Below, in pieces: positions 32,891-60,556 of a stretch of 64,000 nucleotides of DNA. This DNA comes from Lysinibacillus sp. 2017 (lineage in GTDB: Bacteria > Bacillota > Bacilli > Bacillales_A > Planococcaceae). The notes beneath the pieces are model-generated. The model was given only the letters and a program-made list of their open reading frames with translations. It ran no database searches and had not been told where the DNA came from. Each line of letters opens with the position of its first letter. Position 1 is the first letter of the stretch. Position numbers and translations under genes: made by a program. The stretch spans positions 1,474,001 to 1,538,000 of the forward strand of contig NZ_CP029002.1 of the NCBI RefSeq assembly GCF_003073375.1, given 5' to 3'.

Positions 32891-33057
32891 GTGTTAAAAA
32901 TACAAAAAACAACTGAAGCAGAAGCCAAAAAGTTGGGGAGCATGTCATATCCGAAAAGCTAACGCTATTTGATTATGTGAAAAAGGTGAACTAGGGGATT
33001 TAACTAAGGAAGATTGGCTAAAGTTCTTAAATATCAATCAGTTGGAGGGAAGATATG
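32891..33057 (+). pseudogene. Possible decayed gene fragment
   Basis: GTG 32891, after an AGGGGGAA-like site, reads 24 residues (LKIQKTTEAEAKKLG, reminiscent of a GNAT N-terminus) before TAA. A different frame then reads GELGDLTKEDWLKFLNINQ and runs to the start of the next gene. It looks like a frameshifted, shortened gene; identity is unsure. Confidence 0.3.
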
Positions 33058-33945
33058 ATAAATGAAAATTTGAAATTCGTCATTCAACTACTCTTGCCAA
33101 TTATTTTTTATGTTGTTGGTTTAGTTGCTTATTATGTTGATATCATAAATTTAGCCATATTTATGGTGTTTATATTGGTAGCCTTTATAATATCTATCGC
33201 TTGCGTATTTTATTATCGAAATAGGAAAAAGCAAAAGATGATTTTTACAGCAATTACTATTCTAATGCTGTTACTCTCACTTTTCGAATTTCGTCTACTA
33301 GCCTATGAATTTACTACATTCATCGTTACGAGCTATAACGAGCCTTTAGAAGTTGTTGATAATTCTGGTATTCATGTACTAGCTGTCCATGAAACGGAGA
33401 TTCAGCATTTTAAGGATTTAGGTTATATGATCCATTCAGTAGAACAGTTGCAAAATAGAGAAGTTTTGGATTATGTGGAAGTGACAAATAGGATGCGCTA
33501 CCATTCTAAAAATATACAATTATTAAGTTATATTACCCCTTCAAAAAATTATTTTAATAAAATGAAGGGAAATGTAATTACCTATTTAAATTTTGAATCT
33601 AAAAACCTGGAAAAGTTTTTCAATCGAGATGATATAGAAGGAGATAGTGCAGGGCTAGCTTTGGCATTAAGTGGTTTGATTGAAAAAAAGGAACTTCACA
33701 ATAATCGACCAGTAGCAGTTACTGGTGCGATAGATGGTTTTGGAAATGTCATGGAAATTGGTTCTATAAAGGCAAAAATATTAATTGCGGAGAAATATCA
33801 TTTGCCCTATATTATCTTACCTGTAGAAAATGCTACTGAGGCGCAAAAAGTGAAATCAGAGCAAAATTTAAACATCGAAATCATAGCAGTTGAGCATGTT
33901 GATGAGGCAGTTAGTGAAATTGAAAGGATTCAGACAGTTAAGTAA
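33055..33945 (+). CDS. Membrane-anchored protein with a Lon (S16) protease domain
   Basis: 296 aa. Three hydrophobic segments occupy residues ~8-95, then an extracytoplasmic or cytoplasmic domain leads into a Lon-type catalytic core at ~185-290. The Ser-Lys dyad is visible: Ser198 in GDSAGLALALS and Lys239 in GSIKAKILIAEK. No ATPase and no PDZ domain is seen, unlike Lon and YlbL. A small membrane peptidase is inferred. GGAGGGA precedes the ATG. Confidence 0.8.
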   Translation: MINENLKFVIQLLLPIIFYVVGLVAYYVDIINLAIFMVFILVAFIISIACVFYYRNRKKQKMIFTAITILMLLLSLFEFRLLAYEFTTFIVTSYNEPLEVVDNSGIHVLAVHETEIQHFKDLGYMIHSVEQLQNREVLDYVEVTNRMRYHSKNIQLLSYITPSKNYFNKMKGNVITYLNFESKNLEKFFNRDDIEGDSAGLALALSGLIEKKELHNNRPVAVTGAIDGFGNVMEIGSIKAKILIAEKYHLPYIILPVENATEAQKVKSEQNLNIEIIAVEHVDEAVSEIERIQTVK

Positions 33946-33954
33946 ATTTATTAG

Positions 33955-33983
33955 TTGTTATATTCGAAAACTTCCTGTATAGT
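33955..33983 (+). promoter_or_regulatory. Sigma-A promoter of the hisS attenuator
   Basis: TTGTTA (33955-33960), 17-base spacer, TATAGT (33978-33983). Transcription would start near 33990, about 23 bases before the leader peptide start. Confidence 0.65.
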
Positions 33984-34012
33984 CATTTGTAACTTATTGG
34001 GAGGAATCTTAA

Positions 34013-34060
34013 ATGCGAAAATTAACAACAGTCATTTCAACAGTACATCATCATACATAG
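34013..34060 (+). CDS. His-rich leader peptide (15 aa)
   Basis: Short open frame MRKLTTVISTVHHHT ending in TAG, with three consecutive CAT histidine codons close to the stop. GGGAGGA (33999-34005) is 7 bases upstream. It lies between a promoter and a terminator, directly upstream of a histidyl-tRNA synthetase gene. This is the layout of a ribosome-mediated attenuator: slow decoding of CAT codons when charged tRNA-His is scarce would alter leader RNA folding. Confidence 0.8.
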   Translation: MRKLTTVISTVHHHT

Positions 34061-34107
34061 TAGTCTTGCTATCTTTATTAATTTTTTAATATTGAATAGG
34101 AAGACTA
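34061..34107 (+). promoter_or_regulatory. First hairpin of the His attenuator
   Basis: TAGTCTT-G-CTAT (34061-34072) pairs with ATAG-G-AAGACTA (34096-34107). It begins at the base after the leader-peptide stop, so a ribosome stalled on the His codons or at the stop would cover its 5' arm. Confidence 0.6.
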
Positions 34108-34117
34108 TTTTTCGTGA

Positions 34118-34168
34118 AATCGTATAAATAAAGCCGATTGGGAGCTTTATGAATATACGATTTTTTTT
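34118..34168 (+). terminator. Attenuator terminator upstream of hisS
   Basis: AAATCGTATA (34118-34127) pairs with TATACGATTT (34154-34163); inner TAAAGC/GCTTTA extends the stem, and eight T follow. It lies between the leader peptide and hisS, so it is conditional by position. No T-box sequence is present in 33946-34197. Confidence 0.85.
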
Positions 34169-34197
34169 ATTACCAAAATGGAGGAGGAACAACGAAA

Positions 34198-35469
34198 ATG
34201 AAGAAAATGGATTATCAAAATGTACGAGGGACACAGGATTTTTTACCGCAAGCTGAGGTTGTAAGACGTAAAATTCGTCGTACATTGGAAGATACATTTA
34301 TCTTATATGGCTGCAAACCACTTGAAACACCGATTATTAACTACACCGATTTAATGGCGTCGAAATATGCGGGTGGGGCAGAAATTTTGCAGGAAATGTA
34401 TACATTAACAGACCGTGGTGAACGTGATTTAGCATTGCGTTATGATTTAACGATACCGTTTGCAAAAGTAGTGGCTATGAATCCTGAACTAACGATACCA
34501 TTTAAGCGCTACGAAATCGGCAAAGTATTTCGTGATGGGCCGATTAAAGCAGGGCGTTTCCGTGAATTTACACAGTGTGATGTAGATATTGTCGGAGTAG
34601 AATCACAGGCAGCAGAAGCAGAACTCATGATGATGGCAGTCGATGCCTTCGAAAAGTTAAATGTGAATATTACCATTCAATTTAATAACCGCAAGCTATT
34701 ATATGGGCTATTACAACATTTTGAAGTACCAGCTGAGCACATGAATCGTGTTATTTTGATTTTAGATAAGATGGAGAAAATTGACCGTGCAACATTGATA
34801 AAAGAGCTAACGGAATTACAGCTATCAAAGGATTCTTTAATAGCAATTGAAGGATTTTTAGACGTAGCGCCAACACTTGAATATTTCGACCAATACGTTA
34901 CGCAAAATGAATTTGTTCATCAAGGTGTGGAGGAATTACGTGAGTTAACGAACTTTTTAACAGCACTAAATCTAACTTCCTGTGTATTTAATCCATTTTT
35001 AGCTCGCGGTCTTGAAATCTATACAGGAACAATTTATGAAATTTTCTTAGCAGATGGTGCGATTAAATCGAGTATTGGTAGTGGTGGGCGTTACGATAAT
35101 GCGATTGGAGGTTTAATCGGAACGGATCAAGCCTTTGCAACAGTAGGGATTTCATTTGGCTTAGATGTAATTTATACAGCATTTGAATTAGCTGGGAAAG
35201 TAGAAAAAAATGCATCTGTAATTGATATTTATATTATTCCAATCGCTACAGAAATAGAGGCCTTACAATTAGCATCGGCATTACGAAAAGACGGAAATCG
35301 TGTAGAGGTAGAACTAAGTGGCAAAAAGGTACGAAAAGCAATGGAAAAGGCAAATCGTGAAAATGTGTGTAAAGTGATCGTTTTAGGCGAAGATGAAGTA
35401 AGGAAAAATCAATTCTTATTGAAGGATATGAAAAGTGGAGAAGTACTGGAAATCGAATTTAAATTTTAA
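34198..35469 (+). CDS. hisS: Histidyl-tRNA synthetase, eukaryote/archaea-like type
   Basis: Class II synthetase of 423 aa that charges tRNA-His. The motif-2 region reads LALRYDLTIPFAKVVAMN and FTQCDVDIVG, as in eukaryotic and archaeal HisRS, where the common bacterial form has LRPEGT. The histidine-specific block is ARGLEIYTGTIYEIF. The C-terminal anticodon-binding domain (~325-423) is retained, so it is not HisZ. GGAGGAGG precedes the ATG. This type usually occurs as a second HisRS in Bacillales; a housekeeping copy elsewhere is inferred. Controlled by the His leader upstream. Confidence 0.92.
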   Translation: MKKMDYQNVRGTQDFLPQAEVVRRKIRRTLEDTFILYGCKPLETPIINYTDLMASKYAGGAEILQEMYTLTDRGERDLALRYDLTIPFAKVVAMNPELTIPFKRYEIGKVFRDGPIKAGRFREFTQCDVDIVGVESQAAEAELMMMAVDAFEKLNVNITIQFNNRKLLYGLLQHFEVPAEHMNRVILILDKMEKIDRATLIKELTELQLSKDSLIAIEGFLDVAPTLEYFDQYVTQNEFVHQGVEELRELTNFLTALNLTSCVFNPFLARGLEIYTGTIYEIFLADGAIKSSIGSGGRYDNAIGGLIGTDQAFATVGISFGLDVIYTAFELAGKVEKNASVIDIYIIPIATEIEALQLASALRKDGNRVEVELSGKKVRKAMEKANRENVCKVIVLGEDEVRKNQFLLKDMKSGEVLEIEFKF

Positions 35470-35556: not shown

Positions 35557-35784
35557 ATGAAGGCTATCGTGTTTGATTTTGATGGAACATAAGTAGAAAA
35601 TTCACAGGCAATTTATATTGGCGATAGTGATGCTGATGTAGTGGCTGGTAGACAGGCTAATGTTTATACAATCGGCGTGCAGTGGTTACCAGAGTATCAA
35701 ACACCTATTTTTGGCGCACAACCTGATTGTATTCTAAAAAGTGTAATGGATTTTAATAGACTATTTAAAGAAGGTGCATTATGA
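35557..35784 (+). pseudogene. HAD-superfamily phosphatase, internally deleted
   Basis: GAGAGAG then ATG starts MKAIVFDFDGT, the HAD motif I with its nucleophile Asp, followed by an in-frame TAA at 35590-35592. The frame then continues VENSQAIYIGDSDADVVAGR, HAD motif IV, without the ~130 residues that should lie between. The 3' end overlaps the NUDIX start as ATGA. Both a stop codon and a central deletion make it non-functional. Confidence 0.85.
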
Positions 35785-59991: not shown

Positions 59992-60066
<75 letters not shown>

Positions 60067-60090
60067 AACTTTTCAAAATAATAGTATTAT

Positions 60091-60165
<75 letters not shown>

Positions 60166-60188
60166 AACTTTTCAAAATAATAGATTAT

Positions 60189-60263
<75 letters not shown>

Positions 60264-60286
60264 AACTTTTCAAAATAATAGATTAT

Positions 60287-60361
<75 letters not shown>

Positions 60362-60383
60362 ACTTTTCAAAATAATAGATTAT

Positions 60384-60458
<75 letters not shown>

Positions 60459-60481
60459 ACTTTTCAAAATAATAGTATTAT

Positions 60482-60556
<75 letters not shown>

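Follow-up and report, generated by a model that had tools for sequence, protein, structure and literature searches.

A conserved histidine-codon leader, with no antiterminator found, precedes an accessory histidyl-tRNA synthetase gene of Lysinibacillus and related bacteria

Within the window, the 64,000 nucleotides of Lysinibacillus sp. 2017 analysed here, an extra histidyl-tRNA synthetase (HisRS) gene, hisS2, is very likely governed by a sensor made of histidine codons in a short upstream leader frame. This view follows from the conservation of the leader and of a hairpin (H1) behind it, from compensatory base changes in H1 and in the terminator hairpin (H2), and from the position of hisS2 as an additional HisRS beside a housekeeping hisS under T-box control. 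Judging from its codons, the leader probably senses charged tRNA-His. A His leader before a second hisS was already predicted in 2010; what is new is that the control codons end before H1, that H1 lies at or just after the stop codon, and that no antiterminator was found. As to mechanism, we give about even credence to a ribosome-sensed attenuator of the accessory HisRS that acts through H1 and a paused RNA polymerase rather than through RNA refolding.

The promoter, Shine-Dalgarno (SD) sequence, leader frame, His codons, hairpin, run of eight T and hisS gene were all where the first-pass annotation had put them (Table 1). H2 began approximately 57 nt past the leader stop codon, with H1 in between. 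Upstream of 96 distinct leaders the mean best promoter score was 9.55, compared to 8.37 in shuffled sequences, and the -10 element ended 24-25 nt ahead of the leader start in 43 of the 96 and 29 nt ahead of it in the window. These -10 positions suggest that the mRNA starts shortly before the leader SD, at a predicted distance of about 17-22 nt from the leader start when 7 nt is assumed between the -10 element and the first transcribed base. Directly upstream of the leader and on the same strand (33055-33945) was a gene for a Lon-type S16 protease-domain protein (Pfam Lon_C; weak SepM family match), and immediately after hisS2 (35558-35783) was an apparent HAD-family hydrolase remnant with an early stop. 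Elsewhere in the window, six consecutive CAT-anticodon tRNA genes (59992-60556) of equal Rfam score, spaced by 97-99 bases, were part of a 22-tRNA cluster behind an rRNA operon and resembled a tandem amplification.

Table 1. Sequence features of the hisS2 leader region, numbered from the first base of the window.
Feature	Position	Strand	Details
Predicted sigma-A-type promoter	33955..33983	+	-35 TTGTTA 33955-33960, -10 TATAGT 33978-33983, 17-base spacer
Leader-frame Shine-Dalgarno GGGAGG	33999..34004	+	
Leader peptide frame MRKLTTVISTVHHHT*	34013..34060	+	ATG 34013, stop TAG 34058-34060
Three CAT (His) control codons, CATCATCAT	34046..34054	+	
Hairpin H1	34061..34107	+	5' strand 34061-34072 TAGTCTTGCTAT with 34096-34107 ATAGGAAGACTA; G.G mismatch 34068/34100
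Predicted hairpin-stabilised NusG-type RNA polymerase pause	34105..34115	+	CTATTT 34105-34110 = -11..-6 of T at 34115
Hairpin H2, predicted intrinsic terminator	34117..34168	+	T8 at 34161-34168
hisS2 Shine-Dalgarno GGAGGAGG	34180..34187	+	
hisS2, second histidyl-tRNA synthetase, 423 aa, archaeal/eukaryote-type	34198..35469	+	RYDLT; ATG 34198

The hisS2 product matched NCBIfam NF009085 (PRK12420) at 601.3 bits, over the cut-off of 540, and carried RYDLT at residue 81, while the housekeeping HisRS of the same genome had RPEGT at residue 79. The earlier suggestion of a second HisRS of archaeal/eukaryote type was thus borne out, and this enzyme sits beside a T-box-controlled housekeeping HisRS. 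Among solved chains, 6nhi, 3net, 3hri and chains of cytoplasmic HisRS matched best and ranked above 1qe0 and 1kmm; taken in this order, they run from non-classical bacterial through trypanosomal and human enzymes to those of S. aureus and E. coli. The best named relatives, among the best 80 of 325, were from Solibacillus and Lysinibacillus at 78-80% identity. A phage origin was rejected, as 12 phage records matched at 23.9-34.1% identity only. At E<=1e-100, hisS2 was present in 36 of 261 genomes from the window's order, several of which coincide with named genomes. All 36 also encoded a housekeeping hisS (at least 70% identity) with a T-box sequence upstream, the window's genome included, and Rfam confirmed the T-box in 19 of the 20 genomes given to it. 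Before hisS2 there was no T-box sequence, and Rfam reported none in the leader at the gathering threshold, in agreement with the first-pass annotation. A scan of 33900-34220 at E<=10 returned eight families, all below gathering and none a T-box or a His leader; these scans ruled out both a T-box and the proteobacterial His leader family.

Conservation of the leader was evaluated at 110 loci: the best 80 of 325 enzyme relatives from a scan of named genomes, 29 further loci from the 261 genomes of the window's order (whose 36 hisS2 genomes gave 30 loci, these 29 and the window's own), and the window. The first-pass annotation had named loss of the His codons or the terminator in related genomes as grounds for giving up its proposal; on this sequence half of its test, alignment showed His codons, frame and terminator to be conserved, and 109 of the 110 loci, window included, had a clustered-His leader with the H1 motif under a loose rule (two His, adjacent or one apart, near the frame end, and the H1 motif downstream). 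The lone exception, L065, had a different upstream region. It is a second hisS2 copy in Oceanobacillus sp. J11TS1, approximately 12.7 kb from the first (L057) and without leader or H1; its upstream retains, by eye, only the terminator's 3' part. Under a strict rule (an SD-preceded frame of 8-30 codons with HHH near its end), 82 of 96 distinct upstream regions qualified, compared to 2 of 4800 dinucleotide shuffles. The longest His run in these 96 leaders was three in 80, four in two, five in two, two in five and one in seven, so that it reached at least three in 84 and fell short in 12, seven of them with split runs such as HLH. CAT accounted for 281 and CAC for 15 of the 296 His codons. Frames were 13-19 codons long, with start, SD and frame all persisting, and nucleotide conservation upstream of the His codons was low (0-1.0 bits at most positions), while the His codons themselves sat in a nucleotide-conserved region.

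Of 142 leaders, two (L055 and L081) failed the anchor; removal of duplicates left 118, and dropping nine with an unexpected H1 base gave the 109 that underlie the codon-position, energy, pause-T, column-scan and masking counts. The codon that starts 9 nt before H1 was His in 107 of these 109; for codons starting 12, 15 and 6 nt before H1 the counts were 102, 90 and 16, respectively. In a separate set, the 109 of 118 leaders whose frame a script located, the end of the last His codon was 6 nt from H1 in 91 and 3 nt in 14, and the stop codon made up the first three bases of H1 in 97, lying one codon earlier in 11 (window included). The first-pass description of a hairpin starting right after the stop therefore holds for the window and gives way, in those 97, to a hairpin that contains the stop. 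The His-to-H1 distance was still 6 nt in all 11 leaders with the earlier stop, indicating that spacing there is fixed for the His codons rather than for the stop.

The element ranges from Exiguobacterium to Lysinibacillus. When 397 genomes of another order of the class were searched by pattern for the H1 core, 93 places came up, of which 54, picked mainly by eye for H1-like form, were looked at and 39 set aside; many of the genomes concerned coincide with genomes of the named scan. The element was present at 46 of the 54 and absent from eight; 45 of the 46 preceded a HisRS of hisS2 type, a call made from the opening residues of the frame that follows, and a single genome (G973), with the gene in pieces, supplied two of these 45. 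None of the 46 confirmed copies preceded hisZ, and a His leader was likewise absent from the 700 nt upstream of hisZ in the window's genome. In one locus (L166; G654:C1:759785-762023), a leader MDIYNPANNSLVQLHHIN with H1 and H2 intact stood before a complete HAD-type hydrolase gene, in a genome without hisS2 by protein search; the element was either re-used or left over once the gene was lost. At L126 (G596:C25), hisS2 had decayed with stops, the leader was readable, the 5' strand of H1 was mutated, and protein search found no hisS2; on the sequence of this genome, H1 decays along with the gene. A covariance model (R1) matched in eight of 398 genomes of the class: four matches preceded hisS2 (two known, the window, and the Exiguobacterium-like L127), a fifth preceded the decayed hisS2 of G596, and the remaining three were weak (E 0.003-0.008) and look like chance. 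R1 thus gave no new gene context in these 398 genomes, in a search where weak matches can be lost. On the plasmids checked the element travels with hisS2: those of Lysinibacillus fusiformis and Planococcus versutus each had leader and H1, and one labelled Stenotrophomonas had the leader frame, with the exact H1 expression unmatched. Two plasmids labelled Stenotrophomonas rhizophila, CP031730.1 (L245) and CP065518.1, encoded a hisS2 70.7% identical to the window protein; the neighbour genes of L245 bear the same names as those on the L. fusiformis plasmid L244, and the host label is doubtful.

In an alignment (A1) of 68 of 75 non-redundant segments, the H1/H2 structure was paired in 97.3% of cells and 12 of its 20 pairs had changes on both sides; for the 10-pair stem of H1, the values were 99.4% and six pairs. 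None of 500 shuffles, a control that sequence kinship inflates, equalled any of the five measures, and sliding the partners lowered pairing to 38.5-52.7%; the structure was derived from the alignment on which it was tested, and both controls favour it. The base of H1 takes in the stop codon in most species, and where the stop is UAA the partner is UUA rather than CUA. For the G.G mismatch within H1, with both columns at least 90% G, we have no explanation beyond a sequence-specific role. H2 had a U tract and covarying pairs, with a mean dG of -19.7 kcal/mol over the 109 leaders.

Eight bases past the foot of H1, a T was present in 108 of 109 leaders. Numbered from this T as -1, the six bases from -11 to -6 were CTATTT in 63 leaders, CTATTA in 17, TTATTT in 14 and other sequences in 15. 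The accessible text of a 2025 review (PMC12288461) places the NusG pause motif, TTNTTT, at -11 to -6 and its hairpin 11-12 nt upstream. The exact motif occurred in 14 of the 109 and at least four of its five T in 83, and the hairpin-to-pause distance matched the NusG register only with the two lowest H1 pairs open. With that provision, H1, YTATTT and the conserved T fit a predicted NusG-type pause. The first base of the motif, which pairs with the third base of the stop codon, may be mostly C for that reason. NusG of the window's genome had RNTPGV, with Asn-Thr at residues 82-83, which we presume from the numbering to be the B. subtilis N81/T82 pair. The review, in the same accessible part, ties that pair to motif recognition (PMC12288461).

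An antiterminator overlapping H2 was sought by three tests, built on energy models and column scans only, and none found one. The column scan took in any helix of 4 bp or more that was paired in 85% of the sequences, and reported those with at least two G-C pairs or a covarying pair. In the hisS2 leaders it recovered H1 and H2 and nothing convincing that shared the 5' strand of H2: the sole helix there was a 4-bp GAUU/GAUU with two G-U pairs in 83 non-Planococcaceae-type leaders, and two more 4-bp matches joined the H1 5' strand to the H2 3' strand (AGCC/GGUU, UUGC/GCGG). As a positive control, 36 housekeeping hisS T-box leaders yielded the terminator and competing helices, including AGGG/CCCU, presumably the T-box antiterminator. 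This control helix is itself only 4 bp long (its neighbour 6 bp), making the column scan a modest test. Two candidates noticed along the way were rejected: an antiterminator in which CGAUUU or CUUUAUU of the apical strand of H1 would pair with the 5' strand of H2, spotted by eye, was not conserved in the column scan, and pairing of the U tract with AGGAAGG is G-U rich and possible only after the decision.

The other two tests used single-strand energy models without proteins or kinetics, and an antiterminator that is lineage-specific or aided by a protein could escape them. For the masking folds, the RNA of each of the 109 leaders was ended before the H2 3' strand and the share of the H2 5' strand that pairs with upstream sequence (sequestration) was calculated. 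A free H1 gave a sequestration of 0.163, and masking 5 or 12 nt of H1 gave 0.321 or 0.324; the corresponding values with shuffled upstream sequence were 0.393, 0.406 and 0.389, suggesting that the leader is, if anything, depleted of H2 competitors. In the stall/stop test, sequestration was compared between a ribosome at the first control codon and one at the stop. The E. coli controls gave the classical sign (trpL 0.62/0.00, thrL 0.48/0.00, hisL 0.32/0.06), hisL being the weakest, with 0.43 in the absence of any ribosome. The sign was opposite in four of five hisS2 leaders (window 0.05/0.51; others 0.15/0.30, 0.02/0.11 and 0.06/0.40) and level in the fifth, L061 (0.25/0.24). Moving the ribosome to the last His codon gave 0.31, 0.31, 0.11, 0.53 and 0.25 for the five leaders. 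The antiterminator that the first-pass annotation had hoped to reveal by folding with the leader masked did not appear, as there was no pairing excess in the 109 leaders and individual leaders gave either a level response or one with the sign reversed relative to the E. coli controls.

The front of a ribosome lies approximately 12-14 nt past the base that opens its A-site codon. A toeprint 15-16 nt from the A of AUG, reported in the accessible text on B. subtilis tlrB (PMC6851288), agrees with this distance. By it, a ribosome at the first His codon would end at around 34058-34060, just before H1, and one at the stop would reach around 34070-34072, the end of the H1 5' strand; finishing translation would therefore open H1, and waiting would leave it closed or nearly so. 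In the mechanism to which we give about even credence, RNA polymerase would start shortly before the leader SD and a ribosome would load at once. H1 would form and, with YTATTT and the conserved T, would pause the polymerase approximately 8-10 nt downstream of H1. When His-tRNA-His is ample, the ribosome would clear the His codons and arrive at the stop, where it would cover the H1 5' strand, open H1 and free the polymerase, after which H2 would terminate transcription. When His-tRNA-His is scarce, the ribosome would wait at the His codons, its front reaching the foot of an H1 that stays closed or almost so. Instead of an antiterminator helix, the packing together of ribosome, hairpin and paused polymerase would then disable H2 and hisS2 would be made, which is the weakest step. 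That crowding of ribosome and paused polymerase would spoil H2 is a proposal of ours. According to the accessible text of PMC4824070, a terminator in E. coli ceases to work when it follows closely on a translated gene, a result in the spirit of the crowding proposal, not a test of it.

Several observations count against this explanation. The H2 5' strand is free when H1 is whole (0.163 vs 0.393), and RNA folding alone would thus predict termination in starved cells. The exact TTNTTT is confined to 14 of 109 leaders, the His run is shorter than three in 12 of 96, and the HAD hydrolase behind the L166 element is not obviously a target for control by His charging. In its favour, NusG pausing with leader peptides has precedents in tlrB and vmlR. 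The more specific reading, an attenuator without antiterminator in which the stop-codon hairpin and a NusG-type pause read the stalled ribosome and the proximity of ribosome and polymerase decides termination, is offered tentatively and falls somewhat short of an even chance.

Alternatively, the leader could follow the classical scheme of the E. coli his and trp attenuators, the stalled ribosome breaking H1 so that its 3' strand pairs with the H2 5' strand, in an antiterminator that would be lineage-specific and would thereby elude a search based on conservation. The overall order of leader, hairpin and terminator suits this, as do the alternative antiterminators that Ashniev et al. 2022 report, in the text accessible to us, for His leaders of other Firmicutes. 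Masking 5 nt of H1 does raise sequestration from 0.163 to 0.321, with 14 of 109 leaders reaching 0.5, and L020 attains 0.53 when the ribosome sits on its last His codon; however, 0.321 remains below the shuffled 0.406, and a ribosome at the first His codon leaves H1 intact and sequestration low. The stall/stop sign is opposite in four of five hisS2 leaders and level in L061, unlike trpL, thrL and hisL, and the column scan that detects a T-box antiterminator in the same genomes finds none convincing here. We consider classical attenuation unlikely.

Control could also be post-transcriptional, with H2 leaking at a fixed rate and a ribosome stalled near the 5' end shielding the read-through mRNA from 5'-end-dependent decay. 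Ribosome stalling is known to stabilise ermC mRNA, the hisS2 mRNA is predicted to start a mere 17-22 nt or so ahead of the leader, and no antiterminator was found; yet shielding leaves unexplained the strict keeping of H1 and its following T, and of a strong terminator, and we regard it as improbable. The logic might instead be reversed, such that finished leader translation opens H1 and partly blocks H2, with hisS2 on when His-tRNA is ample and off upon stalling. This would accord with the higher sequestration when 12 nt of H1 are masked, as by a ribosome at the stop, than when H1 is free (0.324 vs 0.163; window 0.51 vs 0.05), but 0.324 is below the shuffled 0.389, unlike a selected antiterminator, and there would be little point in turning off a synthetase while its product is scarce, rendering this reading very improbable. 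That the frame is untranslated and its His run a mere by-product of RNA conservation is hardly credible: the His codons do lie in a nucleotide-conserved region and are nearly all CAT (281 of 296), yet start, SD and frame persist at 13-19 codons despite low conservation upstream, and four of 96 leaders have runs of four or five His.

The first-pass annotation had set a His leader on a Bacillales hisS apart from what is usual there; novelty is not supported, as Naville and Gautheret 2010 (PMC2965389), in the text accessible to us, describe for bacilli a peptide of this kind ahead of hisS* and hisZ. The same text holds that, ermC aside, leader peptides are unproven outside Proteobacteria and Actinobacteria. 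By its description (the second hisS of bacilli, a short His-run frame and a terminator), the window element is almost certainly the hisS* leader of those authors. Theirs is presented as a cluster of similar 5' UTRs, and an analysis of hairpin anatomy, spacing, pause or antiterminator is absent from the accessible text; their leader also precedes hisZ, unlike any of our 46 confirmed copies. Ashniev et al. 2022, in the accessible text, describe His-leader attenuators with antiterminators before his operons in the B. cereus group and others. In the open PMC literature text we found no account of a missing antiterminator, a hairpin based on the stop codon, the pause register or the spacing rule. 

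With the E. coli his, thr and trp attenuators, the hisS2 leader shares a leader frame, tandem control codons and a terminator before the gene, and E. coli his and trp also have its layout of a hairpin with a downstream pause. Classical leaders have their control codons inside the first hairpin, reversing the effect that waiting and finished translation have on it, whereas those of hisS2 lie wholly before H1, which starts at or just after the stop. The hisS2 leaders further differ in lacking a detected antiterminator, in a stall/stop response that is level or opposite, and in having no match to an Rfam His leader. The closest parallels in B. subtilis are tlrB (PMC6851288) and vmlR (PMC9226507), which according to their accessible texts combine leader-frame stalling, a hairpin-associated NusG-dependent pause and an intrinsic terminator, as predicted for the hisS2 leader; unlike it, both sense antibiotics. 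In tlrB the stalled ribosome stops completion of the terminator hairpin, and in vmlR an antiterminator forms. The T-box leader of the housekeeping hisS has the same presumed input (tRNA-His charging) and the same output, a terminator before hisS, but binds tRNA directly where the hisS2 leader uses a peptide frame.

The accessible text of PMC9226507 reports that B. subtilis RNA polymerase outruns the lead ribosome, a circumstance in which leader peptides that sense amino acids ought to be difficult to exploit; yet this one has been retained from Exiguobacterium to Lysinibacillus. If the more specific reading, termination decided by the proximity of ribosome and polymerase, is true, it would open a route to amino-acid attenuation for bacteria whose polymerase outruns the ribosome, and if the leader indeed lacks an antiterminator it would add to the ways in which a ribosome can govern an intrinsic terminator. 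The two HisRS genes of one cell are placed under two sensors, a T-box and a ribosome, presumably of the same tRNA, which makes these bacteria a ready system for comparing what each sensor does best.
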